64,000 bases of DNA from Membranipora membranacea (Eukaryota > Bryozoa > Gymnolaemata > Cheilostomatida > Membraniporidae): positions 1,426,001-1,490,000 of the forward strand of contig OU612071.1 of NCBI GenBank assembly GCA_914767715.1, written 5' to 3'. Under the pieces are notes generated by a model. It made no database searches. It saw nothing but the letters and a program-made list of their open reading frames with translations, and was not told the origin of the DNA. Positions 4,153-54,400 of this stretch are shown in pieces; positions within the stretch are counted from its first letter, which is position 1; every line of letters starts with the position of its first letter. The translations under genes and the position numbers were made by a program.

Positions 4153-4161
4153 TTTATCACA
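4153..4161. repeat. Target-site duplication, left copy (9 bp) of the MULE
   Basis: TTTATCACA lies directly before the left terminal inverted repeat and is repeated exactly at 17448-17456 directly after the right one. Nine base pairs is the characteristic duplication length of Mutator-like elements. Confidence 0.93.
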
Positions 4162-4240
4162 CGGTTTTAGTACTTCGCGTACACGTAATAGCGTAATCCT
4201 ACACGTATTTACAGTGGACACCTAAAATATTATAATAGTC
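4162..4240 (+). repeat. Left terminal inverted repeat of the MULE (79 bp)
   Basis: It begins CGGTTTTAGTACTTCGCG and matches the reverse complement of 17369-17447 at 77 of 79 positions; the differences are a T/A near 4209 and a T/C near 4223. Similarity stops abruptly on both sides. MULE terminal repeats usually bind the transposase and often carry the promoter. The predicted start codon lies about 240 bp inside this repeat. Confidence 0.93.
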
Positions 4241-4477
4241 ACTCTCCCTATTTATTTTTGGAGTTGCCTTTCTTAACAGCTTGTCATAGACTTCCTGACT
4301 GGATGTATTTATTATTTTAAGCCAATCAATGCTGCTCTCACAAATTTTATTTTCTAACTGTCAATTGGATGTTTTGGTAGCAGGAATCCAATTGCATTGC
4401 AGCTGACATTATCCATCAGATGGTGGTCGCCATCTTTTTCTTCTACAAAACAAGCTTGCCAATATAAATGCAACAAT

Positions 4478-7400
4478 ATGGGTGAGTTTGTTAGTTACCC
4501 TCGATATAGTTAGGAGCCATATAGGCACCTGTGGTCTGTTAGTTAAGCTTGCACAACAATGCCCACGTTGACACAGCAGGAGTTTTCCTGGTCAGCAGAC
4601 TTGACTGAACTGAACCACAGGTGACAATAAACAGGCTCATGACAGGCTCTAGTCTATCTATCTATCTTATCTATCTCCTCTGACTGACTGAGTGTCTGCA
4701 GGAGTGACATACATGCATAGACAGATAGTTGCAGATGGCCAAGTGTTTGGTCTAAACTGGCTATCTAGAGTGCTTGGCTAGTCACTGCAGTGCCCCTGTG
4801 GACTGAACATGACATTTTTTATCAAAATGAGAGATGATGATGATCATCATTGCGTTAACCACCACCAAGGTTTGTGTTAGTTTAGTTAGGTATTTATATA
4901 ATATATATTATTTATATATATTAATTACTTATATAATTATATACATTCCATAGTTTTCCAACTCCACCCTCATGATTCAGAATATTGACAAGTACATCAA
5001 ACAAACATAACACTACACTACTTTAAATTTTGTGACTTCGAGAGATTGATGTCAATAAATGGTGAGTTTTTACTCACTTTAGATTTAGGACCTGACTCAC
5101 ATTAATAAGGCACATCAGATGGAAAAGACTTGTAAGATTACTGCTATCATCATATTCTGTGGTTAAAATAGACTTGATTGACAATGAATTTCTCTTAACT
5201 GAAAAGAGGGCGTAAACCTACCTTAATAATTTCGTCTATTTCAAAGTCAGCAAAGTAGTATAGTTATGACATGCGATGCATTGTGCACGACTCACAAGTT
5301 GTAGACATATCAGTCCAAGATCGGATGGCGTAATAGGCCTACCGATCATTGACTGATCTGTAAACTCATGGTGCTGTGCACTAGTATGATGTGTCATGCA
5401 AGGTCGTCCTAATGCCCTGTCACAACATGGTGCACTGTAGTACATGTATTTTAATGTTTGTTATTAATTACGCCAAATTGTGTTATATTCAGCACTGAGT
5501 AAGGTCTACTTTCTAATGTAGACATAGTTCGGTAATTACATAACCGAGTTAAAAAAGAGAGAAGGAGTATGACGTTAAACTCCCTGTTGAGCCACAGCGG
5601 CTTCCATTTTATGATGCAGGAATCAGACAGATATACTGTTTTAATAGTAAGCTAGTTATGGGTTTCTCACTCACAAGCTGATCTCAGTGGTATTAAAACC
5701 ATACTGCCATCGATAATATGTCTATGCACTGTTCATTGAAATGACATTGCGCTTATTTGCTATTGCATTGTTTCAGAATTGGAAGGTATTGCCAACTACG
5801 GAAACAGCTGCTTCCTCAACTGCGGTGTGCAGCTTTTGAGGGCAACCGCTACCGGTCTGTGTAAGTAACGAGCTACCATCTGGTATGGAGTGGCATTACT
5901 CTATACGAAGCAATTATTTGGCATTAGTGGCATTCCCTACTGTAGGCCTGGGCCTTAGCAAATGTTTCTTTTCTTGTCACCAAGCCTACATGCTATTTTA
6001 TGCTTGGGTCATAGTATCTATAGTTGCAGCTTATTGCAGAGTTTATAGGCCTACTAGATCTCCTTTGAATTCCGCAGTAGAAAACTAAGTACATTATAGC
6101 CTACTAGCTGTTATTCCTCATGAATTCAGCGACCCTCTATTAAAGTCAGAATTTATGTAGTTTAACCTATGTAGAAACCCTGACCACTCTGTCCCTCAAT
6201 GGTTAATCACATTGGTTTGTATAATCTGCCAAGTTGCTACTTCCTTATACATACATGTAGTTGTCTTTCAACCAGCGTGAGAGAAAATACCCTAGTGTTC
6301 TCTCTTCGCTAATTAAATAACATGTTTTATCTCCAGGTTTCTCAGATGATTGCTTGCGGTGTATAGCGTCTACCTACCCCGCAAGAGCAGGTGATCATAT
6401 TTACCAGACGGCGAAAGGTACGAGCAGCTTCTTAGTTTCCAAACTCATTCAAATAAATAATACTAATGATTATTGGTGTAAAACGCCTCTTCGCCTTTTA
6501 TTTCTATCGTACCCAGATCATGGAAGATTATCAAAATTCTACAGACAGGCCAGCTGTTTATAAAGGTGGAGGACGATTTGCCAGTCTAATAAGCTTTTTG
6601 TGACTGTTTGATCAACAATTATTTTGAAGGCCCATCATTCAGGCGAAGCATTTGGTAAATAGTACATGTATCTTTTGTTATTCTTTTAGATCATCTTTGT
6701 AACCTCGTTAATGGCAAACAGCAGGATGTTGTCGAGTTAATCCAGGCTATGCTCAACCTGCCGTGTGAAACGTAAGTGTTACAGCACTACGTAACTGTTT
6801 ATTTATTGGAATGACTTCCTAAAAAACTGTGCCAGAGACACTGTAAGATTCTAGTGCTGAGTGAAAATAAAAATATAGCCTCAGATTTTTTATGTGACTA
6901 TACATATACAATCAACAGCAAGGCCTTCATCTACCAACATCCTACATGTAAGAAACAAACATCGTCTTTACTTAACCGTGAGACTGGTGAGCAACAGACC
7001 TTATGTGTTAATGTGTACACACACACACACATTTGCGATTTCATGTGCTAAAAGCTGAAATTTTCCACTGAAGTAATTTTAAAGCTCATTAGAGACAATA
7101 AAAGATTTTGCATTACGTTTGAATGTCACGTTTAGCTAGCAGCAGTGGCGGATCTGGACCCATGTCTGAGGGGGGAGCATTTTTGGCGCGAAGTGCCAAA
7201 AAATATTAGGGCCTGACATTTAAATGCTCCCCCTTTCAGATGAGAATACTCCCCCTACTTCACTAAAATGCTCCCCCACACAATTTTTGAGCTATACAGA
7301 TTATTATAAGTGGCGATGAACCACCATATCATACTACCTAGCACTGTAAACAACAAAGATCTTTGAAAACAACACGCATATAGTTTAAAATGGAGTTTTG

Positions 7401-10400
7401 TAGCAGTTGCCTCCTCATGTAACTAGGTGCAGACATCTTTCAAGAAGGGCAGAATTCAGGCAGCAGACCCTGTCCTTGTCTCTGTACCTTTGTTATTGTC
7501 AAGGGTAGTAGGCAATCTGGACGGACAGTACAGTTTGTATGGAAGAATGAAGTATTTTCAATAGTTTCAACTTAGTTGCAAACACAAAAACGGCTGTAAA
7601 ATGAGTTCTAATCAACGGATTTTGATGCACTTTTTTTTTAAATACTCCTGACATCACTCCCCAACCTCTCAGGGGAGGGGGGAGCCTGTGCTCCTTGGGC
7701 TCACCCCCCAAATCCGCCACTGACTAGCAGTGTGTAAATGTGGAACCTTGGCTCACCCTTTTATTGCCGCCAACAACTCCATCCCACCCTCCTTGTTGTG
7801 ATCAATATTTCGTCACTGATTATATTGACCTCAATGTTGTCCCCTCACACAGAAAGAATGGGCAACTCTGGGAAGCAACACGACCCTGCAAGTTCATACC
7901 TACTATTTTGGTTCACCTGAGTTTTCATTTGCATTAAAAAATTATATTCCATCTTTCAGAGATAGCGCGCGTAACCTGTGGGGGAAAGTCAATACAATTG
8001 TTGTTTGTCATGAATGCAAACAACAACGGAGTGATATACAGGACTTTAATATTCTCCCTGTTGCTATGGTGAGTCCTCTTTCATCAACATTAATATTCGT
8101 ACATTGGTCTTTTATCTGAATGAATGGACAAATCCAGTCATGGTTTCATATAGACTGACCTTGCTGTGTGACCTGGCCGCTCTGCTTACCAGCCCCTCAG
8201 GCGACAGACTGGCCCCAAATGAAGCTTATTCTGTAATCGTCTCCCCCTTGTTACTGTGTCAATATTCATATGTTAGTCATTTCATGATATGCTCTTGTTA
8301 CCGGCCAGGACAGACTACCAGGTCAGTCTAGGTTTCATACAGAGACCTGTGACTTTAAAGCGGCTCCGCTTATTTTAAGCGGCTTTTGGTTAGGGAATAC
8401 ACGGTTTTCAATCATCAACATTGTCTAGCTGTCACCCAATTCACCCATTTTCAAGATATCTATATCATAAATAGACAAAGGGACATTACAAAGGCAGCAA
8501 AATGGCATTTCTAGTCGCTTTTCAGTACAATATAGTCTGTGGAGTCTGATATACACACCTAGTATGCGCTTTTTGAGATCGGAGTACGAGGTTTAAAAGA
8601 AAATTCAATCACAGGTGTGATACAGTTAATAAGGCAAGAAGTTCTTTTGTGCTCAGCAACACACTTGGATTTTTTCACCGTGTCATGTAAGGCGTGATAG
8701 GAGCAATCGATCCGATACGCTTGCGGGTACATGGGCTATTCTGGTTTGTGGAAATATAAATATAGCTGTTTCGTCAATAATAATGCAGTAGTCAAAATAT
8801 GTAACCACTCCGTGATGTTACTTTGGATTTTGGTCAGATTTAATTGGTAGTCACATATATATGATTTTGTGAACGTAATATAGTAAGATAGTAATGTTTA
8901 TTGCCGCTGATGATTCACAAATGTTGAGTCAAAAAGGAGGAAAGCTAGAAAAATATTTTGTAAATGTAACTTTGCTGTACTGAGAATTAAATCTGATACA
9001 GAACATTGGACTATCAATCATGCATGCAGTTAGTTATATAATTTACAAAATTGCAGAAAAAGCTATCACTGCCGTCCGGGACTTTAAGCGTGAAATCTTA
9101 TTGGTCCTGATCAGTTAATAAATTCCATGTTTGTAATGTGACGGCAAATATGCAAGATGTTAATTTTTGTGAGATCACTGTTTATTCTACTTTAAGGATG
9201 GTGGTTCACTTCAAGCTGGGCTCACGACATATCTTTCAGCAGTTGCACTGGATGAGTTCTCCTGTAGCAGGTATTTATGTGGGTTTCTGATGGGTTACTA
9301 TCGATCTAGACTGGGCGTCAAAGGACAGTTTGCCTTGGTATGGTCTCACAATATGAAATATTTTGAAACTAGACACTAAGTGATTTTTCCGAAAAATAAA
9401 TTTTCGGGATTCAGCGAAATTTTGCAATGAGCAACTAGCCTCAAGGTCAATCCTAGTATTCAACAAGGGCTAGTCTATTTTAAGCTTTTTGGCTTGAAAA
9501 CATGGCAAGAGCTCTGCTTAACGAGGTTACCCAATTTCAGGGATTTTGATGTTCACATTTTTGCTGTTGTAATTTTTAGTTATTGCTGATCTGTCATAAG
9601 AGTTTATGTCTACATATTGCCCAGCCTAGATCGATCAGATTTCGCACCAGTGCTATCATACTAAAATTGTATAGCTAGATTTCCCTGGATCCCTGCTTTC
9701 ATGATTATGGGCAAATAATATTCCACTATACATGTTTCATGCATCAACTTCTCGAACATTCGAATTTATCCAATGCAGAAATAGTTAGGAGTAATCGTCG
9801 CATTCAAATTGTGGGCACAAATCCTTGAAAACAACCCCTTCAAACTTCGCTTTATTGTAGCAAGGTTCCAATGGCTCCTGAGCACCTTCTACAACACTGT
9901 CATTTGCAGGGAGTCTTGGAGATCCCCACCCCCCCCCCCCCCCCTTAAACGTGGCTTGAGCATGGTTCTGCATTATTTTATAATTTTGTATAACTCACTC
10001 TAGTAGTTTATTGCTGTATAATATCAACCTTAGTCTTCCAAATTAATTCTCACAGCGCTGTCCTGGGCCTCTATTAGATATGCAACTGTGCACTGGGCTC
10101 CATTCTTTTACACACTCTGAAATCGGTCTAAATCTGAATGAAAACAAACTGAAACCAGGACTATCCATTCCAGGAAGAAAGCAGTTGAAACTGCTCATTA
10201 GAAAATAAATTGAACAACTGCTTTATGCCTAACGTGTGCTATTCCATGGCGAACTGTACTCTGAGTGGTATTTTCTTCTCTCATTGCAGTTGTGGCACTA
10301 AAGGTACATGTACTCAGAAAGCTGAGTTCGAAACGACACCCGATGTCTTAAATATCCAGCTACCACTGTTCACTGAGAATCTTCGAAAGCTCAAGGTTAA

Positions 10401-13400
10401 AAGGACTATCCCTGACATACTCACTGTGACACAACACAACAAGGTAATTGCATGCCCTTGCTCATTATTAAGTCAAACAACTTCAGCTTGTCATCATCAC
10501 TTTGCTGAGTCGTCTCCTATTATTTCATGGGATGCCAACTTGGGCAATGAACAATTTGAAACGCTCAATACTGTTATTTACTTATTTCACAGGAAGTGTC
10601 ATACTATCGGTGCATATTTGCAGTCGCACACAGGGGGCTCTCCTTGTTAAGCGGCCATTATGTGTCATATAAACTTCACAAAGAGACTTGGTACGAGCTA
10701 GATGATGAAAAGGTAGCCGATTTATGTTTAATGTGGTTTTGACTTTTCTTGTCTCGTAAAGTAGCCAGATTGCCTGTTGAAATATAGATAACATTGCGTT
10801 TCGGTGGAAGGCATTCGTTAGTTGAGGAGCGTCTGTGACAGTTCATTGCCCTATGCTTTCCAAATTCAATAACTTAACATAGATTGTGAAATCTGACCTG
10901 ACAGGGTTGCACACTCTAGCACACACTGGAGAGCAAAGTTGACGGGGAACCATACACGGAAGTTGGAATAAGGTAGTGAGCAACTTTCTCTTTCTGCTGA
11001 TGATAAAGGTTGATGTGATATTAATAACTCTTTTGTAGGTGTGCACCGTCAAGGATGGGTTTCCAGCTACTAACTGTTATATTGTCTCATATGAGAAGGT
11101 AAATGTTGCTAATTAAAATATTATAATTTGATTAGAGACAACAAGCTTGTATATATTATTACATTAGTTATATGTATATGATAGAGACTACTGTTTCCAG
11201 TGCTGTCATTTTTGTGACTTGTGGAGGAAGTATCAACTTGTTAGTACCAGGTCTCGGGCTGATCTGACAGTCAATTGCATCAGACCTTTGACCTTGTTCT
11301 TAGTTGCTGAAAATTGATGAACCATAGAATGTGTATAATTATTAATGTGTATTTATTTAGATCAAACCATGGTAAGAGGTTTTTAAAAGTTCCATTTTGA
11401 GCTTTTGATTTTAAACATGCTAGTTGTTTTAAATCATGAACTGAGTTTATTGCTTATACCAAGAACATACAATGTTCTTGCTTAATCCAAGAACGAAGAG
11501 CTGAATATGCCGGAAGTTATACTCTCTTGAAAACTAAGAAGATAACTTCTCAACATATATCAATGAGCTAAATATGTTATATATTACATTCATGTCTTTG
11601 CTTTTAATAATACCTACACTACGCATCCACTTGTAACTACTAGACCTAATGATAATTTCATTATTAATAAGTCTATTGTTTAGACTGTGGATAGTGAGGT
11701 GTCACAAGACTGTCAAAATTTTGCCATTTCATCTTTTATTATTCAGATGTGTTATTTTTGTGATGGCGTGAATTTCAGGGTGGTTGGTGTCTAAATTTAA
11801 CATGTTCTTTTTTGCCTTCAATGTAGTGTCATCTCTGTTGGTATGTATTCTGCGCCGACTGGTGTATCCGATAACAGCTCTATCTCTGACATATCAGATG
11901 TCAACCCTTCTCCCAGGTCAGTACAAATTGCTAGTTGTTTTAAATCATGAACTGAGTTAATTGCTTATATCAAGAACATACAATGTTTTTGCTTATACCA
12001 AGAACGAAGAGCTGTATATGCCGGAAGTTATACTCTCTTGAAAACTAAGAAGATAATTTCGCATCATATATCAATGAGCTAAATATGTTATATATTACAT
12101 TCATGTCTTTGCTTTTAATAATACCTACACTACGCATCCACTTGTAACTACTAGACCTAATGATAATTTCATTATTAATAAGTCTATTGTTTAGACTGTG
12201 GATAGTGATGTGTCACAAGACTGTCAAAATTTTGCCATTTCATCTTTTATTATTCAGATGTGTTATTTTTGTGATGGCGTGAATTCCAGGGTGGTTGGTG
12301 TCTAAATTTAACATGTTCTTTTTTGCCTTCAATGTAGTGTCATCTCTGTTGGTATGTATTCTGCGCCGACTGGTGTATCCGATAACAGCTCTATCTCTGA
12401 CATATCAGATGTCAACCCTTCTCCCAGGTCAGTACAAATTGCTAGTTGTTTTAAATCATGAACTGAGTTAATTGCTTATATCAAGAACATACAATGTTTT
12501 TGCTTATACCAAGAACGAAGAGCTGTAAATGCCGGAAGTTATACTCTCTTGAAAACTAAGAAGATAATTTCGCATCATATATCAATGAGCTAAATATGTT
12601 ATATATTACATTCATGTCTTTGCTTTTAATAATACCTACACTACGCATCCACTTGTAACTACTAGACCTAATGATAATTTCATTATTAATAAGTCTATTG
12701 TTTAGACTGTGGATAGTGATGTGTCACAAGACTGTCCAAATTTTGCCATTTCATCTTTTATTATTCAGATGTGTTATTTTTGTGATGGCGTGAATTTCAG
12801 GGTGGTTGGTGTCTAAATTTAGCGTATTCTTTTTTGCCTTCAATGTAGTCTCATCTCTGGTGGTATGTATTCTGCGCCGACTGATGTATCCGATAACAGC
12901 TCTATCTCTGACATATCAGATGTCAACCCTTCTCCCAGGTCAGTACATATTGTTTTTTCTTGACCTCGTTTTACATTTGCAAAAATCAGTTGAATTGTGG
13001 TTAACTAAAATAACCAAAGAAAGCTGCCAGATATGCTTTGCTTTGAACACATGTGCATATTCTAGATGGGTGCTGCATAAAAAAATTTATGCACATACTT
13101 TACAGACCTAAAATGCTTTAATGCTGCCCGCAGCCGATGGCACATTTTAAGTAGACATATATTTTTTTGTAGTCCATCTGAATGGTTGTCACCGTCACCT
13201 GGTTTTCTTTTACAATGTGTGACCTGCACGATTATGTTTGTTTCAGATCGGTGTCAATGGATGGCTGTATTGACCTAACATTAAATAGTGATACAGAATC
13301 AGTTACCGGTAAGCGAGCCTTCAATTGTGTGAATATCGTGAACAGGGATGAATATGACCATTGCCTTAATCCAAGTTTTGGATCTATTTAAAGCTAGCTC

Positions 13401-15744
13401 CACTCCTTCAATGTGTTTTGAGCACTTAATGGTTTGATCAAGTAAATTTTTCCGAGGTCCAATTTCTGCAGTATATATCACTGATTGCTATCATGATTTC
13501 GGCAACGGCCATAGTTTTAGCAATAATAAATATAGATATTGATTTATGATATGTGTATGGTTACGGCACTTTGAGTGACTTGTCATACCCTGGTCGTCAA
13601 TACAAAAGCGCATGATCCGGACAATCCAGCTGATTATAACTGGATGTCTCATTGTTGCAGATGATGCTGAGACGTATCTAAATGATGATCCAGCTACACC
13701 CATTTACAAAGCATCAGCCATTACAGATAGGATGAGCCAAGTCAATATATTATATAATGCAAGTCGAGGAGCCAACAGAGAAAAAGTTTGTAGCACTATG
13801 CCATATCGATGCGTCAGTAATTCATCCTTTGTAATTGATGTAGCTCGTTTAGATTCCGCTAAGGACCTTGCTGCTGATGGTTTACCCACCTGGTTGAATC
13901 GTTCTAACAAAGACTATAGATATGCTATCGGGAAAGATGGGCGTATCAAGGAGTGTGACACTGGGCCATTACTGTTTCGCACAACATATTACGCTCAAAA
14001 AACTAACATCAAAATTACACGACGCATAATGCGTCTTACTCATTCTTCTGGAGATATGGCTATGATCTGCTATATGTTTAATGGGGAAAAAATTGTTGAA
14101 CAGCCCCATGGGAACAGCAAAAAATCAGAAATGTATGCCCGAACTAGGCCTAGTTTGCTGGATAAGGGGAGGATGGGAATTGAGAGTAACATGGCCCCGA
14201 GGGAAATCATTCAACAAAATATGAACAATAATAACCTTCTCACTATGACCGATACATCTGGGGAGTTTAAAAACTGTACACAAATATATAACTTGAAACG
14301 TTCTGTGAAAGATAAGCTGTGGGTTGATGAGCTACTATGGGCCATAAACGATCAAAAAGAAAGAGAGGGCAGTCCTATAGCTAACATATGCATGACGGGA
14401 AAGTGTCAGTTGGCCATTACTCTTGCCACTGATACACAAATTCATTTGATTGAACAATTTTGCACTGGAGAATCTGCTGGCATCCTCGGAATTGACATGA
14501 CGTACAATATTGGACAGTACTTTGTTACACCCACTACAATACGTCACCCTCTGCTCATACACACGGTTACTAAGGTTGAACCAACTCTCTTGGGTCCCAC
14601 ATTGATTCACACTGAACACAACGAGCATAGCTATCGTTATTTTGCTAGTAGCATTGTGAACTTGAACTCTAAATTAAAGTATATCCGTTTCTTGGGATCA
14701 GATAGGGCACTTGAGACTGTGAATGGGTTCAAAATTCACATGCCTTTATTACAGCACATTGTATGTTTTAAACACCTCAAAGACAATGTAGAGTCGTACT
14801 TAAAATCAAAGTTATGTGACGCTGAATATAACAAAATTCATTATGACATGTTCACCACCCTTCTAGACAGTAACACTGAAGCAGAGTTTGAAGAGGTGTT
14901 GGAAGCTCTGCTGTCATCATGGAACTCCATAAACCCCGATATTACTAAATGGTTTATTAGACATCAAGCAAAATCATTCAAAAGCTTGGTTAGGGAGAAT
15001 AGACAGGCTGCTGGGCTTAATGACAACTTTTTTTATAATAACAGCAATGAATCAGTAAACAAGGAGCTCAAACGAAATCTCACCAGAAAATCGTCTCTAA
15101 AGGAAATAATAGAGGAGTGGGAAAAGCAGGGAAATAATCAAAAAAACAATTGTGAAAGAGCAGTTTTGAGTAAGGGTTTGTTCAGGCTTAAATCGAAGTA
15201 CAGTAGAATGACATACGACCCTCAGGAGTTTTGCAAGCTCAGTAGTGAAAAGAGAAAAAGAATTCTAGCAACCGTATTTAAATACCCCACAATGACAAGT
15301 GATGGCCGTACTGAAACACTAACCCAAGCAGTTACCAGAAACTGCAACAAACGGGTTGGAAGGAAGCTGAATGAGAATCAGAGGAAGCGAAAGAAAGCAA
15401 GCCATGCTTCTCAATTCTGCGCATTTGAAAGCAAACACAAGTCGCATGTCTTCTTCAGATTTAGTACTGATTGCCGTGCCAAAAAATGTTATGTCTGTGA
15501 CGAGCTGTTCAAAAAAGAGGGAAATGAGCTGTTAGGGGTGGTGATGACTTATCGAAAATACAGGGTGAAAGATTCTGGCACTATAACCATATCAAAGACC
15601 CCCCAGAATACCTACTGCCATCTTAAATGCCTGGACTGGCGTGAGGATTTCAGAAAACCTTACCACATGTGTAACTACCTTAATATATCTGTGTCTCGGG
15701 ATCATTTAGCTGAAATTGAGAAGCATGGAACGCTTACAGATTGA
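4478..15744 (+). CDS. Predicted USP-MULE transposase fusion protein (~1064 aa, 14 coding exons)
   Basis: Exons read by eye: ..4478-4481, 5777-5860, 6337-6417, 6690-6771, 7960-8068, 9197-9270, 10290-10443, 10593-10712, 11039-11098, micro-exon 11361-11371, 11827-11916, 12338-12427, 12849-12938, 13247-13308 and 13661-15744. All introns are GT-AG and all phases agree; the exons sum to 3195 nt, exactly 1065 codons with the stop. The start is the ATG-G at 4478, in context AACAATATGG, whose last base completes a Glu codon with exon 2. Residues 1-256 are a USP domain, about 257-370 a Ser/Asp-rich linker with three 30-residue repeats, and 371-1064 the transposase. The weakest link is the 11-bp micro-exon. 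Without it the protease would read on five codons to a stop at 11111-11113, and the transposase would be a separate gene. A poly(A) signal AATAAA is at 16198-16203. Confidence 0.68.
5777..11098 (+). CDS. Ubiquitin-specific protease (peptidase C19) domain, eight main exons
   Basis: This part would remove ubiquitin from proteins. In protein order: the Cys box G-N-x-G-N-S-C-F-L-N with catalytic Cys13; Q67-Q68-D69 followed by an E-L-I-Q-A-M-L helix, the usual Q-Q-D-A-x-E-F position; a zinc ribbon C100-H-E-C103 and C143-S-S-C146; the His box G-H218-Y-V-S-Y; then W229 with D233/D234, the expected Asp of the triad; and a final strand ending Y-I-V-S-Y. All the residues expected for activity are present. 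At about 256 residues it is shorter than the usual 300-350-residue USP core and has no large insertions. Each Cys and His motif sits in a different exon, so their conservation argues against pseudogene decay. The exact substrate (ubiquitin or a ubiquitin-like protein) cannot be told from sequence. Confidence 0.88.
7143..7722. mobile_element. Nested hAT-type MITE (580 bp) in USP intron 4
   Basis: The left end reads CAGTGGCGGATCTGG and the reverse complement of the right end CAGTGGCGGATTTGG, a terminal repeat typical of hAT elements. Eight-base flanks GCTAGCAG (7135-7142) and ACTAGCAG (7723-7730) match at 7 of 8 positions, fitting the 8-bp duplication of hAT transposons. No transposase is encoded. 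It lies wholly within the intron between exons 4 and 5 of the USP gene. Confidence 0.75.
9928..9950. repeat. Poly-C tract in intron
   Basis: There is a nearly uninterrupted C run between the exons at 9197-9270 and 10290-10443. It is a likely site of sequencing or assembly length error but touches no exon. Confidence 0.8.
11361..11371 (+). CDS. Candidate 11-bp micro-exon joining USP to the repeat exons
   Basis: The sequence ATTTATTTAG precedes ATCAAACCATG, which is followed by the strong donor GTAAGA. It enters in phase 0 and leaves in phase 2, exactly the change needed between the last USP exon (phase 0) and the first repeat exon (phase 2). Eleven bases is very short, so chance agreement is possible. 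It is proposed only because it makes the whole reading frame consistent. Confidence 0.45.
11419..12951 (+). repeat. Three tandem 511-bp repeats, each holding one 90-bp exon
   Basis: Units start at 11419, 11930 and 12441 with the same GCTAGTTGTTTTAAATCATG start and a constant 511-bp period. They differ by a small number of substitutions. Each contains a 90-bp exon (11827-11916, 12338-12427, 12849-12938) bounded by AATGTAG and GTCAGT. The exon is phase 2 on both sides, so any copy number keeps the frame. The chosen frame gives M-Y-S-A-P-T, then D-N-S-S-I-S-D-I-S-D-V-N-P-S-P, hydrophilic and Ser/Asp-rich with possible CK2-like sites. In the alternative open frame the peptide is hydrophobic and does not connect to the flanking exons. 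Confidence 0.85.
13247..13308 (+). CDS. Linker exon before the transposase exon
   Basis: The 62-bp exon lies between TTTCAG and GTAAGC, phase 2 to phase 1. It encodes a short segment ending D-T-E-S-V-T and joins in frame with both the third repeat exon and the transposase exon. No domain was recognised. Confidence 0.65.
13661..15744 (+). CDS. MULE transposase (DDE), large terminal exon
   Basis: The exon follows the acceptor TTGTTGCAG and is open for 694 codons to a TGA at 15742. Within the predicted fusion protein: an N-terminal part with the P-H-G-N motif seen in animal MULE proteins; first catalytic Asp at about 649 (L-G-I-D-M-T-Y); second at about 718 (G-S-D-R-A), followed by the MULE C-x-x-H signature (V-C-F-K-H-L-K-D-N); and Glu at about 834 in N-N-S-N-E-S-V-N-K-E-L-K. 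A basic R-K-R-K-K stretch near 945-949 could be a nuclear signal. The C terminus has C-x4-C-x2-C and C-H-x-x-C, a probable zinc-binding module. In-frame sequence upstream to an ATG at 13612 exists, but the splice acceptor makes an internal exon more likely. This protein should cut and join the element's terminal repeats. Confidence 0.85.
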
Positions 15745-17368
15745 TAGATATAATATATAAATATGTAAGCACACCTCAGAATAATCATAAGTACAAGCAT
15801 AGAATTGTTGATCATGTTGACTTTTTCCCAGCTTGTGAAAATATATGAAAATTCACTGACGGAGATAGGGCTAATATGGTGGAGCGAATTTCGGTGTCCT
15901 CTGTCAAGGTGTGTGTTTGACTATTAGTGGTAGTGATTGTATTCATATGTATCTGCAAGTACAGCACATATCCTTAGTTGAAAAGTAAAGCGTTCATCAT
16001 CATAATTTCACATTTATACCCAGGTTAACAGGGTAGGAAATGTTTTGTATATTTTTGTATCTGTTTGTAAGTATGTTTGTACATTGTAAACTCATGGTTT
16101 GATTTTTTTGTTGTATATGTATCCGACTGTTTTGTGATATTAGAAGTACGTATTGACTTTTATAGATTAGTTGCAGGTTTATAGTAAATACAATACTAAT
16201 AAAATGTTGATAGCATGTTTTCAAATTTGCTTGCAAATTCATTCCGTGATGAGTTGAATCAATTACTACCTGCCAGGGGCATGACAGGTCTAGTACCGCC
16301 ATATCAGTTCAATGAATGTCTGACTACCTAACTTGCTGTTTGAAAGAGATAAACATCTATGTGTACTTCTGCATTGACTGAACAGCCGGCCAGCACACTA
16401 GGCCTTCTACTATCGGGGTATTTCTCACGGGAAGGTGGGAGTAAAGCGTTACTTCCATTTACAATGGTTTCAAGGATGTAGATATCAGGGTTGTCCTTTC
16501 TTCTTTTTCGGCTCATTTAATTTGGCCAGAGACAGGCCAGAGACACTGCGACCCAGGGGGGTGGGGACTCGCCAGAAAGAAAATCCACCATGCTAGGCCC
16601 AGCCACAAGCCCACTACCCCTAACACTGTTTGGCCTGATTCACCTACCATACCCTTTCCACTCTGTCAGCTGGACACATATCACTTTGGCTAACGCAGGA
16701 TTCACCCCCTTTTCACTAGCATTATAAGCATATGTGCAAAACAACCCCTTATTTATGAATTTCACTGTGCAGCTCCACCTCTCCACAAACACCTCCTTAA
16801 ATGTATTTTTGGGCCGAGCATAGTGGGTAAATTTTGGTGAGTCTCCCCCCCGGGGCACTGCAATAAGTAAGAATAAGACTTTAAGAAAACATTGTGGTAG
16901 AGCTCATCTGCCCAGCCCGCCTAGCCAAACCTGGTGGATGTGGTTTGGTTGTTTTTGTCAACTCCCGAACCAAAGTTGGTATGTATTTGGCCAAAACACA
17001 ACTCCATCTACTGAGGTATTTCTGAGTTGTATTCTCCTGTCAAAAAACACTCACAGGAGAGGATAACAACATAGTCTGTGAATGATGACAAATTTTTGTT
17101 CTGACCTTGACATTGCAAGAATCAATAATAAGACTTTGGATGGGTGGTAACTGACTAGTCACAGTAATCAATGATTAGTATTATGTGCAAATTGTAAAAA
17201 ATAGGAAAAATTCATGAAGTGCTTTGATGATTCTGCCAAAAGAAACTTAATCACAAACAATTACAGCAGTCTAGGTAAGTGTACTGGTGGCCACTGTTAG
17301 CTTTGGGCATTGTTTGCAATGTTAGGTGATGAATTAAACCTGTATGGGAGTTTGTATTGGTGCATAGA
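15745..17368 (+). other. 3' non-coding part of the MULE, with a poly(A) signal
   Basis: This region between the stop codon and the right terminal repeat holds AATAAA at 16198-16203 and the nested MITE listed separately. No other exon was recognised. Confidence 0.6.
16549..16855. mobile_element. Candidate nested MITE near the right end of the MULE
   Basis: The left end has GACCCAGGGGGGTGGGGACT. The reverse complement of the right end has CCCCGGGGGGGAGACTCACC. Both are flanked by CACTGC (6 bp, just outside each end). The inverted similarity is imperfect and G-rich, so the call is tentative. Confidence 0.4.
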
Positions 17369-17447
17369 GACTATTATAATATTTTGGGTGTCCACTGTAA
17401 TTACGTGTAGGATTACGCTATTACGTGTACGCGAAGTACTAAAACCG
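17369..17447 (-). repeat. Right terminal inverted repeat of the MULE (79 bp)
   Basis: This is the reverse complement of the left repeat at 4162-4240 with two mismatches. It ends AGTACTAAAACCG directly before the duplicated TTTATCACA at 17448-17456. Confidence 0.93.
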
Positions 17448-17456
17448 TTTATCACA
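17448..17456. repeat. Target-site duplication, right copy (9 bp) of the MULE
   Basis: TTTATCACA here is identical to 4153-4161 and starts at the first base after the right terminal repeat. Confidence 0.93.
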
Positions 17457-17649: not shown

Positions 17650-17662
17650 AGCTAGTGATTAA
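17650..17662. repeat. 13-bp direct repeat flanking the SINE array, left copy
   Basis: AGCTAGTGATTAA occurs here and again at 20685-20697, immediately outside the two ends of the tandem SINE array. It has the form of a retrotransposition target duplication for the whole 3-kb block. Confidence 0.85.
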
Positions 17663-20600
17663 TGGGCTATCTAATTAGCGCCATCGACCCATTCTTTTTT
17701 GGGGATGGTGAGATGGCGCAATCGGTTAGCGCGCTTGCTATTCACTGCCAGGCGATTAGTGCCGCAGGAGTTGTGGGTTCGAGCCCCACTGGGGGAGCTT
17801 TCATTGTTGATTGTTCCAGCCCCCAGCACCCTCGGGTGTATACCTCTCCTGTGTACTTGTCTACTGACTGACTCATGGAAAGACATGTGACAGCATGGAA
17901 AGACATGCTGACAAGCTGGAAAGACAGCTAAAACCTACTACAAGGGGTCCCAGCAATGGGCCATGTAAGGCCAATAACCCTAACACGTACGCTGTGTTTC
18001 ATAGGGTGGCAATGGTGGAATGGAATGTGCTGTGGGATGAGAGAACACAACTCCGAGTAGTGAATAGCGGGCTATCTAATTAGCGCCATCGACCCATTCT
18101 TTTTTGGGGATGGTGAGATGGCGCAATCGGTTAGCGCGCTTGCTATTCACTGCCAGGCGATTAGTGCCGCAGGAGTTGTGGGTTCGAGCCCCACTGGGGG
18201 AGCTTTCATTGTTGATTGTTCCAGCCCCCAGCACCCTCGGGTGTATACCTCTCCTGTGTACTTGTCTACTGACTGACTCATGGAAAGACATGTGACAGCA
18301 TGGAAAGACATGCTGACAAGCTGGAAAGACAGCTAAAACCTACTACAAGGGGTCCCAGCAATGGGCCATGTAAGGCCAATAACCCTAACACGTACGCTGT
18401 GTTTCATAGGGTGGCAATGGTGGAATGGAATGTGCTGTGGGATGAGAGAACACAACTCCGAGTAGTGAATAGCGGGCTATCTAATTAGCGCCATCGACCC
18501 ATTCTTTTTTGGGGATGGTGAGATGGCGCAATCGGTTAGCGCGCTTGCTATTCACTGCCAGGCGATTAGTGCCGCAGGAGTTGTGGGTTCGAGCCCCACT
18601 GGGGGAGCTTTCATTGTTGATTGTTCCAGCCCCCAGCACCCTCGGGTGTATACCTCTCCTGTGTACTTGTCTACTGACTGACTCATGGAAAGACATGTGA
18701 CAGCATGGAAAGACATGCTGACAAGCTGGAAAGACAGCTAAAACCTACTACAAGGGGTCCCAGCAATGGGCCATGTAAGGCCAATAACCCTAACACGTAC
18801 GCTGTGTTTCATAGGGTGGCAATGGTGGAATGGAATGTGCTGTGGGATGAGAGAACACAACTCCGAGTAGTGAATAGCGGGCTATCTAATTAGCGCCATC
18901 GACCCATTCTTTTTTGGGGATGGTGAGATGGCGCAATCGGTTAGCGCGCTTGCTATTCACTGCCAGGCGATTAGTGCCGCAGGAGTTGTGGGTTCGAGCC
19001 CCACTGGGGGAGCTTTCATTGTTGATTGTTCCAGCCCCCAGCACCCTCGGGTGTATACCTCTCCTGTGTACTTGTCTACTGACTGACTCTTGGAAAGACA
19101 TGTGACAGCATGGAAAGACATGCTGACAAGCTGGAAAGACAGCTAAAACCTACTACAAGGGGTCCCAGCAATGGGCCATGTAAGGCCAATAACCCTAACA
19201 CGTACGCTGTGTTTCATAGGGTGGCAATGGTGGAATGGAATGTGCTGTGGGATGAGAGAACACAACTCCGAGTAGTGAATAGCGGGCTATCTAATTAGCG
19301 CCATCGACCCATTCTTTTTTGGGGATGGTGAGATGGCGCAATCGGTTAGCGCGCTTGCTATTCACTGCCAGGCGATTAGTGCCGCAGGAGTTGTGGGTTC
19401 GAGCCCCACTGGGGGAGCTTTCATTGTTGATTGTTCCAGCCCCCAGCACCCTCGGGTGTATACCTCTCCTGTGTACTTGTCTACTGACTGACTCATGGAA
19501 AGACATGTGACAGCATGGAAAGACATGCTGACAAGCTGGAAAGACAGCTAAAACCTACTACAAGGGGTCCCAGCAATGGGCCATGTAAGGCCAATAACCC
19601 TAACACGTACGCTGTGTTTCATAGGGTGGCAATGGTGGAATGGAATGTGCTGTGGGATGAGAGAACACAACTCCGAGTAGTGAATAGCGGGCTATCTAAT
19701 TAGCGCCATCGACCCATTCTTTTTTGGGGATGGTGAGATGGCGCAATCGGTTAGCGCGCTTGCTATTCACTGCCAGGCGATTAGTGCCGCAGGAGTTGTG
19801 GGTTCGAGCCCCACTGGGGGAGCTTTCATTGTTGATTGTTCCAGCCCCCAGCACCCTCGGGTGTATACCTCTCCTGTGTACTTGTCTACTGACTGACTCA
19901 TGGAAAGACATGTGACAGCATGGAAAGACATGCTGACAAGCTGGAAAGACAGCTAAAACCTACTACAAGGGGTCCCAGCAATGGGCCATGTAAGGCCAAT
20001 AACCCTAACACGTACGCTGTGTTTCATAGGGTGGCAATGGTGGAATGGAATGTGCTGTGGGATGAGAGAACACAACTCCGAGTAGTGAATAGCGGGCTAT
20101 CTAATTAGCGCCATCGACCCATTCTTTTTTGGGGATGGTGAGATGGCGCAATCGGTTAGCGCGCTTGCTATTCACTGCCAGGCGATTAGTGCCGCAGGAG
20201 TTGTGGGTTCGAGCCCCACTGGGGGAGCTTTCATTGTTGATTGTTCCAGCCCCCAGCACCCTCGGGTGTATACCTCTCCTGTGTACTTGTCTACTGACTG
20301 ACTCATGGAAAGACATGTGACAGCATGGAAAGACATGCTGACAAGCTGGAAAGACAGCTAAAACCTACTACAAGGGGTCCCAGCAATGGGCCATGTAAGG
20401 CCAATAACCCTAACACGTACGCTGTGTTTCATAGGGTGGCAATGGTGGAATGGAATGTGCTGTGGGATGAGAGAACACAACTCCGAGTAGTGAATAGCGG
20501 GCTATCTAATTAGCGCCATCGACCCATTCTTTTTTGGGGATGGTGAGATGGCGCAATCGGTTAGCGCGCTTGCTATTCACTGCCAGGCGATTAGTGCCGC

Positions 20601-20684
20601 AGGAGTTGTGGGTTCGAGCCCCACTGGGGGAGCTTTCATTGTTGATTGTTCCAGCCCCCAGCACCCTCGGGTGTATACCTCTCC
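17663..20684 (+). repeat. Tandem array of eight tRNA-derived SINE units (405-bp period)
   Basis: The tRNA-like segment recurs at 17699, 18104, 18509, 18914, 19319, 19724, 20129 and 20534, exactly 405 bp apart. Only one substitution was noticed by eye (CATGG to CTTGG near 19090). Each unit has an A box (17714-17725 in the first copy) and a B box (17776-17786), then a tail with the small hairpin CACCCTCGGGTG, then about 218 bp of unrelated sequence, then a T-run of six or more just before the next head. The array starts with only the last 38 bp of a unit and ends inside a unit at CTCTCC. Short ORFs in every copy, on both strands, are by-products of the repeat and are not genes. Confidence 0.93.
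17699..17849 (+). mobile_element. tRNA-derived SINE family 1, first array copy
   Basis: The head GGGGATGGTGAGATGGCGCA carries a near-consensus Pol III A box, and GGTTCGAGCCC is the B box about 50 bp later. The T stem GTGGG/CCCAC is intact but the acceptor stem does not pair, so this is a SINE head rather than a tRNA gene. The other seven copies follow at 405-bp steps. Confidence 0.85.
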
Positions 20685-33129: not shown

Positions 33130-33675
33130 TGCTTTGCCCAGTACGGTGGATGATTATTGTCTGTATCTGAATAATAATGACAATGGTGTAAATGAGTAAT
33201 GATAAAATTTATCAGTGCTGTGTTTTGGAGCTTCGTAGTAATTATTACATTTTTTGAAGTCATGGATCATTGTTATGCTTTGAGATAAAGCATGTTTGCA
33301 TCTCACCTGATTTCTTAGAGTTCACAGCAAATTAAATTCATCAGTGGCTAGGTCAGGTGGATTACCTGCTACTGGATAACCATGAAAACCGGTACAACCT
33401 GTGTCATGGGTTGCGCGGTCAGCGACTAAACTGACCACCAAACCCTACGGGTTTGACGGGTGAGACTGGTCATCCTGAGGTCTGTGGTGGACCATGCCAG
33501 TCAGTGTGAGGTGACACGCACTTCCACAAGAGCAGGGATTAACATACCAATCCTTTGGTCAGTCACTTCAACAGATTAGGGGCACAGTCTGTCTAGGCCT
33601 GTCCTTGCCACTGTCCACCCCTCTTCATGCCAAGTTTGTGCGACTAGTCCGGTAAAAGCTAGTAGTTTTCATGAA

Positions 33676-34411
33676 ATGGTCTATCAGAAACAAACTCATG
33701 CCGGCTCGGATGTCGCCCGGAATAACAAGATCCCCGCTGACCTGTTTTCACTCCGACAGTCAGCGAAAAGTATGCTAGGAGACAGAAGGAGGAAGAGAGA
33801 TGTAGCTCTGAATGTAGCAGAATGGAATGTACGCACATTGATGGATAGATCTGCGCCGCAGCACCCAGGGAGACAGACAGCACTTGTGACCATGGGGTTG
33901 GACAGAAATGGAATAGATGTAGCAGCACTTAGTGAAACACGATTACCAGGATATGATAGCTTGGAAGATCATGGGTATGTTTTCTTCTGGAGTGGTAGGT
34001 CAGCTTGAGAGAGCACTCAGGAAAGAGCTAGCTGCGACCTTGAATGAAGACCCCAAACCTGTCAATAATAGGATCATGACAATGAGGCTTCCTCTTCAGA
34101 AGAAACTATGCGCTACCTTCATTAGTGTAAATGCCCCCACTTTGACCAACACCGAGGACGTAAAGGAACAGTTCTACAGCGATCTGAGAGATACAATCAA
34201 GCGTGTTCCTGCTGATGACAGATTGATTCTGATCGGTGATTTCAATGCAAGAATGGGCTCAGACTCTGACAAGTGGAAGGGAGTCCTCGGCAGTCAAGGA
34301 GTATGCAAGTGCAATGCAAACGGATTGTTGCTTCTGGGTCTCTGCTCAGAGTACAGCCGTGTGATAACCAACACAACCAAGGCACTGGCACTTGCTGGAT
34401 TACATCATTGA
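33676..34411 (+). pseudogene. LINE endonuclease (EEP) region, frameshifted
   Basis: Two overlapping frames cover the AP-endonuclease-like domain: the first holds W-N-V-R-T-L and S-E-T-R-L, the second L-I-G-D-F-N-A-R-M-G. A frameshift lies near 33990-34010, next to the F-F-W-S-G-R motif. Confidence 0.75.
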
Positions 34412-35199
34412 CAGACAGAGACGTTGGTGAGGTGCTGGACACTTGAGCTTTAAGGGGAGCAGATGGTGGCACACATCATGTTACACTCAGATCTAAAGTG
34501 GTGATTAAAAGGAAGATGCAGCACAAGAAGTCCATGAACAATGGACAATGAAAACTAGACACAGGAGCATTGAAAGACCAGAATAAGAGAGAGCAACTTA
34601 AAAAAGATATGGATTTCAAACTCGAACACTGGGATTCAACAGATGGTGATATGGAACAGAGATGGGAAGACTTGAAGGAAACTCAGTATTCAACTGTAAA
34701 ACAAGTGCTTGGGAAGCAGGGCCGAAAACATCAGGACTGGTTTGACGAGCACGATATGTCATTGCAAAGTTGAATGAGGAGAGAGACAAGGCGAGACAAG
34801 CTTCCTTTCAGTGTAACACCAGATCAAAGAGAAAGACTCACAGAAAAGCACAGAGCAGCCTTCAGAGGTATAATAGAGTAGATGGTGGGAAGAAAAGGCT
34901 AGAGAGCTCCAGGAAGAGGCGGACAGGAGGGACATGAAAGCAGTCTACACAGGTTTGAGGGAAACCTATGGCCCAAAACCACCAGGACTGGTTCAACTAC
35001 GGGACCTTGGTGGAACCACAGTCCTACAGGAGCAGGATTAAATCTCTGAAAGGCTTTCTCACCACTTTGACCAGCTGTTAAATATACCAGGAGACTTTGA
35101 CGAGAGAGCTAAGAACAAGATAATGCAGAGGCCAGCTGGTATACTATTGGACAATCCACCTGATATGAATGAATTCGTATCGGCAATCGGTTCAATGCA

Positions 35200-36772
35200 A
35201 GACAGGAAAGCCCCTGGTTGAGATGGAATCCCTTCTGAGGTATGGAAATATGGTGGTCAGAAGATGACAGAATGTCTATTCAAACTCATACAGAAGGTGT
35301 GGGACACTGAGAAAGTACCGCAAGACTGGGAGGATGCAAGTATGTCCCACTGTTTAAGAAAGGCGACAGAAAAGACTGGAAATTATCGAGTTATATCCCT
35401 TCTATCCATAGAAGGCAAGATCCTCTCTCGTATACTGCTGAATAGGCTGAATGCTCATATCACCCCTGGAGTATAACCAGAGCCTCAGTGTGGGTTCAGA
35501 AGTGGAAGGAGTACAATAGACATGGGTCTCTGCTTAAAACAAGTACAAGAGAAATGCACTGAACAAAACATACCACTTTACATGGTCTTTGTTGACTTCA
35601 GTAAGGCCTTCAACACTGTGTCTAGGGTTTGCCTTTGGCAGGTTCTTCAAAAATTTGGTTGCACAGCCAAATTCATCAGCATTAACGAGGCTCTCTATAC
35701 AGGGATGCAAACGAATGTTGCTTTAAGCGGATCCGTCTCTAGTGACTTTGCAGTAAGCAACGGAGTCAAGCAAGGGTGTGTGCTTGCACCAACACTCTTC
35801 TCCTTGTACCTCTCAGCCATGCTTGAAGTAGCCTTCAAAGACAGCTTGGAAGAAGTAAATATCCAGACTAGGAAAGAAGCAGACATGTTTAATGTAGCTC
35901 ACTTCAAATCTTGAAACAAAACAACTGTAAAGTTAGTGAGAGATCAGCTATTTGCTGATGATAGCGCTTTAGTAGCTCATGACTCTGATGACATCCAAAC
36001 TCTAGTTGACAGATTTGCTGATGCTGCAAGGATGTTTAGTCTCAAAATCAATATTAAGAAGACTGAGTGCCTCTATCCATCCCCAAAGTTCCTGAGCGAA
36101 GTATCTTTACCAAGCAATGTAAATATCAACGGAGAGCTGTTGGAACAGTGTAAAACTTTCAAGTACCTTGGAAGCACTGTAGCTGACAATGTAAAGCTAG
36201 ATAATGAAATCTCCCTGAGAATAGGAAATGCTTATGCATTGCATGGAACCTTGCGCGAAAGACTCTGGAACAACTGCCATGTCTCAATAAAAGTTAAGTG
36301 TCAAGTGTCTAGGGCCACTGTACTAGCTGCCTTACTATATGGAGCTGAGACTTGGACTGTATACAGTGTGAAGACTGGCTGTCTGCAAGCAGATGTGATG
36401 AGACATCTACGATCAATCATGGGTATCTCATGGAGAGACAAGATCACGAATGTTGAGGTACTAAAGAGAGCAGGGTTACCGTCCCTAAAGTCCATACTCA
36501 TTCAGATGAATCTGAGGTGGCTTGGCCATGTAGAAAGGATGGACCATAACTGCCTACCTCGACAACTACTCTACTCTCAGCTGAAGGAGGGAAGACGTAA
36601 TCAAGGGAGGCCCAGGTTAAGGTTCAAAGATACTGTGAAGAGGAATATGAAGAAGCTGGACATCGACCGAGCAAATTGGCAAAAGAACGCTAAAAATAGA
36701 GACGGTTGGAGATGTTTGATCAGACCGAAGCAAAATGAAGACTGTCATTGTCGTATCGACAGACTGCTGTGA
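35200..36772 (+). pseudogene. LINE reverse transcriptase region with internal stops
   Basis: Recognisable RT motifs are N-Y-R-V-I-S-L-L-S, Y-M-V-F-V-D-F-S-K-A-F-N-T-V, G-V-K-Q-G-C-V-L-A-P-T-L-F and the active-site F-A-D-D (near 35950). Stops interrupt the frame at about 35220, 35474 and 35912. The last ORF (35936-36772) contains the F-A-D-D box and the usual L-G-H-V-E-R-M and G-R-P motifs. Confidence 0.8.
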
Positions 36773-51477: not shown

Positions 51478-54400
51478 TTAGCAAGCACTTCTACTGGTTT
51501 CGACCAACAACACAAGCTTGGTTATGGGTCGTACAAGAATAGATGTTTTGTCAGACAATTTATCATAAATCCGTACACTAGCATGTCTGACTAGTCCATC
51601 CTTACTTTGACTAACCTCTGTGACCAAACCTAGAGACCAATTTATTCTAGAGCATTGGTCGGCTAATATGACTACATCATTGATTGCGAGATTCCTGTTT
51701 ATCTTACTCCACTTTTGTCGGCATTGGAGGGTTGTTAGATATTCTTTAGACCAACGCTTCCAGAAAATGTCAGCAAGCGCTTGCACCCTAACCCAACGCT
51801 TTCTAGCATACACATCGTCATCAGTAAATGATCCAGGGATAGGTAACAGAATATTTGATTTCATGTGTAGTATATCATTGGGAGACAAAGGTCTCGCATC
51901 ACTGTCGACTGTAGTTAGTGGTCTGCTATTGACTATTGCCATACACTCATAAAACAAGGTACGCAATGAAGTGCTATCTAATCTCTCATTGATCTGGCCT
52001 GACAGACCTGATAGAACATTTCTTACAGAGCGTATCATGCGTTCCCAAGTACCCCCAAAATGACTGCTTTCTGGTGGGTTAAACCTGAACTCACAGCTAT
52101 TCTTTAGAAGAAACTCCTTTACTTTGGGGCAACCGATCATGTTGGTATGAGATTTACGTAGCTCGTTAGATGCACCCACAAAATTTGTTCCATTGTCACA
52201 ACGTAGAAGTCTTACATTTCCCCGTAGAGCAGTAAAGCATCTCAGACTATTTATGAACGCATCAGATGTGAGATCGTCTAGCATTTCAATATGTATAGCC
52301 CTACTTGATAGACAAGTGAAAATAAGCCCATAGCGTTTGATTATGGTGCGCCGATCTTTTACAGTGAAAGGACCAAACACATCGCATCCTGTATAAGTAA
52401 ATGGAGCTTCAATTTCAACCCTGTCAGCGGGCAGATCTGCCATTTTCTGAGTTTCTGTAGGTCTACGCAGACGCCTGCATGTTACACATCGATGAACATG
52501 TGATGATACAATACCATGTAAACCAATAATCCAATATCCAGCAGATCTGATCGCTCCCATGGTTGTTGTCCGCCCCTGATGGCCACAAGTGTTGTGATAG
52601 TGACCTACTATGATATTTGAGATATGCGACTCCTTTGGCAATACAGTTGGATGGTTTTCAACACCAGGTATCAATGCATGTTTGATTCTACCCCCTACTC
52701 TCATAATACCATCTGAATCCAAAAAGCAATCCAACTTCCACATACTACTAGTTTTTGGAATTGTTTTATCGGACTGTAAGCATTGAATCTCATAACTGAA
52801 CGAGCTAGCTTGCTCAGCACGGATTATACGTTTAGATACGGCCTGTACATCATTAACAGTAACCTTGCTATAGATATTGACAGCTTGCTTGCTCAGAATC
52901 TCATGCCTATGTTTGATAACTTTCTGTACTAAGGCTAAAGTATGAACAGCTTTCTTCCAACTAGAGAATCGAGAGCACAACTCCAGAAGGTATTCAGAAT
53001 GCGAGTCAACACAGATATCATGAGTAATTACCTCCTGCTTCAATTCTGGATCATCACAAGCTACATCAAAGTGACCAACACCAAATGTCTGCCACTCTGA
53101 TGGAGAGGAAGTCCATAGAAACTCTGGTCCACGAAACCATATCGACTGTGAGAGATTTGCGACTGATGAGACGCCTCGTGAGGCTAGATCTGCAGGATTC
53201 TGTTTGGTATTTACATATTGCCATTGAGTCACATCTGATATATCATGAATCTGAGATAACCTGTTTGATACATAAGTGCTGAATCGTTTTTCGTCATTGT
53301 TTAGATACCCTAGCACAATCTTAGAGTCACTCCACAGATAACACTTAGCCTCTATTTGTAGCTCTTCTGACAGCATTGCAGTCTGTTTCGCTGCCAGCAA
53401 TGCAGCTTGCAACTCAAGCCTAGGTATGGTCGTTACTTTGACAGGGGTAACACGTGACTTTCCAAATATCAGAGTACAATGTACTTCACCCTTATCATTG
53501 ATGGATCTGAGATATGAGCATGCTCCATATCCTGATAGGCTTGCATCTGCGAATGTGTGTATTTCTTGTTTGACTGCGTTGAAATCTGGAGGATTGACGA
53601 CCCGCTGAATATTTAGATTTGACAAACTAGACATGTGTTTGTTCCAAACAGCCCATTGTTCAGCATAGTCATCGCTCAAGATTTCATCCCAGCCATATCC
53701 TGATCTGCATGCATTCTGAAGAATAATACGGCCTGACAGTATGAGAGGGGAGATTAATCCCAGTGGGTCGTACAATGATGCAATATTAGACAGCATGTTT
53801 CTGCGTGTGTATGGTTGATCTGATGCGGTGAACTCAAACTTGAATGAATCAGATTCTAATGACCACAAGAGACCCAGGGCTCGCTCTGTAGAGCTACATA
53901 GATTGACATTGTCAGTTACTACTGCACAGTCTGATGCTGGGAATGCTTGTAGAACTTCTGGCTTGTTGCTTAGAAGCTTGTGAACCCGTAGATTAGCTTT
54001 AGCGCACACATCCCTAGTCTGATTTAGAAGATTGATTGCTTCAGGTACTGAACTGACACTACCTAGACCATCGTCGACATAAAAGTTTGATGATATGAAC
54101 GATTTAGCTGGGTCATTAGCATAGTCTGCGGCTAGTCTGTTTAGCCCATACTTGGCACAGTTTGGAGAAGATCGTGCCCCAAAAATGTGCACACGCATCC
54201 TATACACAACAGGCTTACCCTGCTCTAACCATATAAATCTGAGATAGTCACGCTGATTTGGAGTTACCCTAAACCTGTGGTACATTTTCTCTACATCACA
54301 AGAAATGGCAACTTGATTTCTTCTAAATCTTAGCAGAACACCTATGAGAGGATTGTTGAGATCGGGACCTTGTAATAGTGTGTCATTCAGGCTCACCCCT

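Follow-up and report, generated by a model that had tools for sequence, protein, structure and literature searches.

A Mutator-like element of the bryozoan Membranipora membranacea that encloses a ubiquitin-specific protease gene

Introduction

When a gene for a ubiquitin-specific protease (USP) lies between the ends of an animal Mutator-like element (MULE), is it a working part of the transposon or a passenger? The question is raised by a stretch of 64,000 nucleotides on chromosome 7 of Membranipora membranacea (C7:1,426,001-1,490,000, hereafter the window; positions without a contig name are those of the window). Here, a 13.3-kb unit with MULE-type boundaries (4153-17456) encloses both a transposase gene and a USP gene. 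An initial annotation, made from the letters of the window, had described this arrangement and had taken the USP to travel with the element. The anatomy is real and unusual, and the copies in the genome give no support to a USP that serves the transposon. The USP looks less like a proven working part than like a passenger acquired on a single occasion, since a second copy of the element enclosing a USP was not found.

All searches of the animal's own genome covered 18 contigs (339,339,785 bases), and the numbers of matches given below are lower bounds. The description of the published assembly, tzMemMemb1, gives 21 scaffolds, compared with the 18 contigs of the copy searched, and lists an alternate haplotype assembly, GCA_914767555.1 (PMC10290214).

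Boundaries of the element

The unit is delimited by the following features.

4153-4161, no strand: left target-site duplication, TTTATCACA; 9/9 exact against 17448-17456
4162-4240, + strand: left terminal inverted repeat, 79 bp; 77/79 identical to the right arm
17369-17447, - strand: right terminal inverted repeat, 79 bp; 77/79 identical to the left arm
17448-17456, no strand: right target-site duplication, TTTATCACA; 9/9 exact against 4153-4161

Two hallmarks of a MULE are present, namely a target-site duplication of about 9 bp (9/9 bp) and terminal inverted repeats (77/79). The arms were recovered independently by an inverted-repeat scan, as 83 nt with 96% identity, and two given positions would share 9 bp by chance with a probability of about 4^-9. 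The outer duplication establishes that both ends entered this site in one event. Perfect 9-bp duplications and 79-bp repeats enclosing a MULE transposase and a USP had been claimed in the initial annotation and are borne out, with the repeats at 77/79; the USP (5777-11098) lies physically between the repeats and is in that sense inside the mobile unit. The host is indeed an animal, Membranipora membranacea being a bryozoan.

In the genome, the terminal repeat has four matches: the two arms in the window, a match of full length and 94% identity on chromosome 7 (C7:96449-96526) and, on chromosome 3, a piece of 36 bp. This search found no further pair of terminal repeats in the same assembly.

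The ubiquitin-specific protease gene

The USP gene has eight checked exons between 5777 and 11098, on the same strand as the transposase exon. A ninth, first exon is putative.

5049-5061, + strand: putative first exon, ATG TCA ATA AAT G; top donor score among six in-phase candidates above threshold
5777-5860, + strand: exon with the Cys box, GIANYGNSCFLN; AG/GT borders and match to the UCH profile
6337-6417, + strand: exon; AG/GT, in phase
6690-6771, + strand: exon; AG/GT, in phase
7960-8068, + strand: exon 4, with the first zinc pair, CHEC; AG/GT, in phase
9197-9270, + strand: exon in which the second zinc pair begins; AG/GT, in phase
10290-10443, + strand: exon in which the second zinc pair ends (CSSC across the join of exons 5 and 6); AG/GT, in phase
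10593-10712, + strand: exon with the catalytic His (SGHYV) and Asp (ELDD); AG/GT, in phase, aligned to USP5 and USP36
11039-11098, + strand: final exon of the USP domain, NCYIVSYEK; placed by the exon join

Each of the eight exons has an AG acceptor and a GT donor, and their in-phase join gives 254 codons without a stop. The joined protein matches the Pfam UCH profile over the full domain (profile 2-253/254; E=7.7e-20, 72 bits, cut-off 23.9), a check that had been proposed for the spliced protein. Solved structures matching it at E<=0.1 represent 33 distinct sequences. The alignments to USP5 (3ihp_A) and USP36 (8bs9_A) were inspected, and in both the catalytic Cys (GNSCFLN), His (SGHYV) and Asp (ELDDEKV) are aligned. 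Together with the zinc pairs CHEC and CSSC, this confirms the catalytic residues and the zinc ribbon that had been read from the sequence.

The earlier count of nine exons stands for eight of them; the ninth is probably the exon at 5049-5061, which was chosen on its donor score. With this exon, the predicted USP would have 264 residues and consist of no more than the catalytic core. Reading through past exon 8 gives 259 codons, ending in VNVAN and a TAA stop, so that the 3' end of the gene is either this stop or lies in further exons beyond those identified. The gene is predicted to make an active deubiquitinase.

One intron of the gene holds what by eye is a nested insertion (7143-7722), with 11-bp ends CAGTGGCGGAT and a hAT-like duplication at 7/8 bp.

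Two protein searches with the USP returned only two near-identical records, P0013 and P0014, and no further relatives. This negative is weak because the database contains pieces of exons in unspliced form and applies a length filter. P0013, a JGI record, was considered as a diverged second copy and rejected: the window translated in genetic code 4 gives nearly the same protein, with one residue and the last residues differing. It represents near-identical DNA, from the same locus or from a copy, and was left out of the count. P0014, according to its record, is encoded by the window; it is a cluster of two sequences on three contigs, the longest of 1843 bases, and was likewise left out.

The transposase gene

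To the right of the USP lie the transposase exon and its presumed upstream parts.

11418-12952, + strand: three tandem copies of a unit of about 511 bp, each with a candidate exon (ATG TAT TCT GCG...); 96-98% identity by self-blastn
13247-13308, + strand: candidate exon, SVSMDGCIDLTLNSDTESVTG, joining in phase to the transposase exon; AG/GT and phase by hand
13661-15744, + strand: Mutator-like transposase exon with putative DDE motifs and a C-terminal CxxC/HxxC; assigned by motifs and relatives

The transposase exon encodes 693 residues. Its match to the Pfam MULE profile is seen and is weak (E=4.6e-4; 21 bits, against a curated cut-off of 27.6), and the assignment to MULEs therefore rests on invariant motifs and on a relative that bears a SWIM zinc finger. 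DMTYN, GSDR and YNNxxES are invariant in 6/6 aligned transposase sequences, that of the window included. We take these motifs to be the DDE triad of MULEs. The profile search suggested by the initial annotation thus gave a match below the cut-off, and the family name is carried by the motifs.

A protein search with the transposase found 12 relatives at E<=0.001 (7995 candidates scored). Among them, P0002 is 98% identical over 75% of the transposase (13/523 residues differ); it may stem from another copy or another individual, or reflect assembly noise. P0001, which represents 21 sequences and belongs to an ENA contig of 6673 bp, is 80% identical over the full length. Eight relatives were scanned against Pfam: four match MULE below the cut-off and four do not match it. 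The distant relative P0012 has both a MULE match below the cut-off and the SWIM zinc finger. In viral contigs, one pattern search for relatives gave no matches and another gave 21 stretches, none of which was confirmed; in prokaryote genomes, 42 stretches matched the pattern and none was confirmed. A fold search was dropped, the AlphaFold model of the transposase being poor (pLDDT 45.9).

The candidate exon at 13247-13308 encodes CIDLTLNSDTES directly before the transposase, and we take this product to resemble a SUMO-interacting motif. The in-phase join of the tandem-unit exon, exon 13247-13308 and the transposase exon was read by hand. A candidate first exon for the transposase gene lies in the triplicated unit, and the triplication may multiply a promoter. 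A fusion of USP and transposase was considered and rejected on phase, by hand, as exon 8 of the USP ends in phase 0 and the tandem-unit exon needs two preceding bases, and also on the stop met in reading past exon 8. Since the frames do not join through the recognised exons, USP and transposase are most simply two genes.

Copies of the transposase and the protease in the genome

If the USP were a regular part of the element, other copies could be expected to carry it, as the initial annotation had proposed to check. The transposase has at least 68 matches in the genome (97 candidates, 64 scored). Thirty-nine of these, including the window's own, are at least 63% identical and all lie on chromosome 7; by proximity they fall into the window, one place at 90.5-95.6 kb and a further nine from 21.6 to 25.0 Mb. 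Identity is 23-35% in the remaining 29, which are spread over eight chromosomes, chromosome 7 among them. Several transposase copies are interrupted near residue 157 by 4-15 kb. That the family is seen on chromosome 7 only is odd, and may reflect local hopping, segmental duplication or some special property of the chromosome.

The same search with the USP gave 19 matches (28 candidates, 28 scored), of which eight are the window's own exons. The remaining 11 are 40-48% identical and fall within residues 179-242; ten are on chromosome 7 and one is on chromosome 6. The claim that the USP travels with the element is thus not upheld, the USP being found once in the genome and the transposase at ten other places on chromosome 7.

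Upstream sequence was read for three of these ten places, and none of the three has a USP within 3.7-9.2 kb or a left end. The copies at C7:24.99 Mb and C7:23.53 Mb have no USP match and no terminal repeat in the 9.2 kb upstream, and their homology to the element begins at window position 12959, to the right of the USP block. Upstream of the latter lies a distant relative of the transposase (23-29% identity). The copy at C7:90 kb adjoins the one other right terminal repeat; its homology begins at 12750, and no USP match lies in the 3.7 kb upstream. On the right side, one copy was read (24.97 Mb), and its homology ends at 16560, short of the terminal repeat. Eleven 10-kb stretches picked blindly from chromosomes 1-11 had no DNA match to the element; one of them, on chromosome 7, held another USP.

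The copies read are remnants of the transposase part, and they show that the USP is not a general companion of the transposase. Recurrence of the protease in several copies of the element is not what is seen: the USP is found once, and 0/3 of the transposase copies read have one. The initial annotation had also named what would speak against it, namely other copies of the element lacking any USP while this USP matches a single-copy host gene in place. Part of this is observed, as there are transposase copies without a USP and the USP is single-copy.

A related protease unit on chromosome 7

The nearest relatives of the USP include a USP-bearing unit that is itself repeated; the two copies read are at C7:990001-1010000 and C7:1724001-1744000. 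Their aligned pieces are 96-99% identical and together come to about 16.5 kb. By eye, the unit has equivalents of exons 4-8 of the element's USP, with a significant tblastn match for the His-box exon alone, and two of its exons end where exons 4 and 7 do, after LP.. and after DEK. In the His-box exon, 18/36 residues are identical, and 12 of these 18 use a different codon; the differences at codon positions 1, 2 and 3 number 16, 17 and 24. These residue and codon differences indicate that the two USPs are old relatives, of which that in the element kept its catalytic residues. By a simple pattern, no Cys box was found in either of the 20-kb stretches. The repeated USP may be a pseudogene, judging from a join of exons 5 and 6 that did not read open.

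The repeated unit was considered as a second USP-bearing MULE and rejected, because it holds no DNA of the present element and Pfam finds no transposase in it. Transposase-like pieces are seen by eye only, alongside a long Ser-rich exon. Eight His-box matches are of the class of this unit (45-48%), seven of them on chromosome 7; the matches span C7 0.17-5.14 Mb and C6:29.29 Mb.

Origin of the enclosed protease

The explanation that we favour, and to which we give about an even chance, is that the MULE took up a host USP as intron-bearing genomic DNA, which now sits inside the left end, ahead of the element's transposase gene. The captured gene would have been an intron-bearing relative of the chromosome 7 USP family, acquired by gap filling or end bypass, mechanisms that have been put forward for Pack-MULEs and Pack-TIRs. 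The two ends would have been cut and pasted together through the action of a transposase on the 79-bp repeats, and the USP would at present be a passenger. The concentration of its nearest relatives on the same chromosome (10/11) speaks for capture, as do the boundaries, the intact USP and its single occurrence, the likeness in exon ends and His-box exon to the repeated unit, and the recurrence of the transposase with no USP in the copies read.

Several observations weigh against capture. These nearest matches, the candidates for a host source, are only 40-48% identical, and the lack of any source gene above 48% among the matches makes it unlikely that the USP was captured recently from a close paralogue that still exists; the capture would have to be old, or its source lost. 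Match numbers are minimum values, as a genome search with the Pfam UCH profile illustrates: it gave at least 85 matches on many chromosomes and none to the window's eight exons, all of which the search with the USP recovered. No second unit with a USP was found in this assembly, and that the USP has moved is therefore inferred. The outer duplication dates the ends and not the cargo, and would look identical had the USP entered the MULE later. Finally, the three copies without a left end look truncated, and are thus no proof that an intact relative lacks a USP.

A rival possibility is that the USP is a long-standing part of the MULE lineage and aids transposition, for example by deubiquitinating the transposase or proteins of repair or chromatin. 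The only unit found with both ends has an intact USP, and other DNA transposons are described as carrying proteases of the ubiquitin system (PMC2836005, PMC9741609). Set against this are the single USP in the genome, the three other transposase copies, all lacking the left end, with no USP within the upstream distances read, and the protein searches, which found near-identical records only for the USP compared with 12 relatives for the transposase (a weak point, given the unspliced pieces and the length filter). Such a lineage is rather unlikely. A bolder version, which we consider improbable, is that an animal MULE lineage independently took a USP as a working part with its own promoter, which shields the transposase or remodels ubiquitinated chromatin at the target site; the other copies would then be dead, 5'-truncated remnants.

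Alternatively, the MULE may have been inserted first, with DNA related to the chromosome 7 USP family entering later by nested insertion or rearrangement and never moving with it. The age of the USP is not given by the outer duplication, homology of the other transposase copies begins just to the right of the USP block, and many dispersed USP matches lie on chromosome 7, all of which would suit a later entry. However, no second pair of ends was recognised around the USP block: of 45 inverted pairs the 25 longest were inspected, and the terminal pair alone combines length with a good match. The left repeat and the start of the first checked USP exon are 1.5 kb apart. An insertion that lacks inverted ends would be compatible with the lack of a second pair, and a later entry is, on balance, unlikely. 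Far less probable is that the USP is a normal gene of the host at its original site, with two repeats from different insertions facing each other by chance. Its presence once in the genome would fit, but the repeats are 97% alike and share a perfect 9-bp duplication.

Other features of the window and the assembly

Just to the right of the element is a tandem repeat with a 405-bp unit (17653-20684; 7.5 copies, 99% identity). The unit is tRNA-like by eye, and ARAGORN finds no tRNA. Further along the window, frames resembling a LINE reverse transcriptase (33580-36772, + strand) and a Pao/BEL-like retroelement frame of 1970 codons (51478-57390, - strand) were recognised by eye.

Elsewhere in the assembly, C15:6125-6892 matches UCH (profile 1-252) in one frame that contains two TAG and six TAA, and no TGA. 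This 16-kb contig is possibly a contaminant with another genetic code. Contig 18 measures 14,741 bases, and the 10,000 that were read have frames that look like an animal mitochondrial genome.

Relation to known systems

Proteases of the ubiquitin and SUMO systems occur in unrelated DNA transposons, which suggests that transposition profits from them. The published accounts describe Ulp1 proteases in plant MULEs (PMC8277862, PMC2836005), Ulp1 in Mutators of hydra and lancelet and OTU or Ulp1 in Ginger1 (PMC2836005), and Helitrons with VTD and OTU domains (PMC9741609). A USP in an animal MULE would add another protease family to these, and the intact gene of such a unit would make the idea testable. 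Should the USP be a passenger only, an animal MULE would still have made a large and complete gene capture.

KI-MULE and the other plant elements, as described, resemble the present one in being Mutator-type elements that enclose a cysteine protease gene of a ubiquitin-like system. Theirs has the Ulp1 fold and is found in plants, whereas here a USP of the UCH fold lies beside the transposase, in one unit of an animal. The plant elements with Ulp1 are present in several copies.

In Pack-MULEs and Pack-TIRs, too, the ends of a transposon enclose host DNA and a target duplication is present (PMC8277862). The survey of 100 animal genomes reports 370 Pack-TIRs with a median duplicated size of 224 bp, in contrast to the eight-exon gene plus transposase found here; its account of animal reference genomes gives no Pack-MULE among the 100, and takes Ssk-FB4 in fly populations as Pack-MULEs (PMC8277862). 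In a 2026 survey of arthropod MULEs, a word search of the main text gave no occurrence of ubiquitin, Ulp1 or protease (PMC13359780). No animal MULE with a USP was among the matches listed in the literature searches, whose coverage lacks most subscription journals.

Elements of the Ginger1, Mutator and Helitron types are similar in that a DNA transposon carries a deubiquitinase-like or deSUMOylase-like domain (PMC2836005, PMC9741609). In the accounts available, that domain recurs in many elements, in Ginger1 within the transposase, and USP is a different protease family. Closest in protease type is a protein of Trichomonas vaginalis that combines Transposase_11 with a Peptidase C19 (USP) domain; it is, however, a single protein of a protist, with a transposase of another family (PMC2836005). 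The anatomy of the Membranipora unit thus falls under known kinds, either a transposon with a protease of the ubiquitin system or gene capture by a MULE, and the joining of an animal MULE with a USP would be a new combination.

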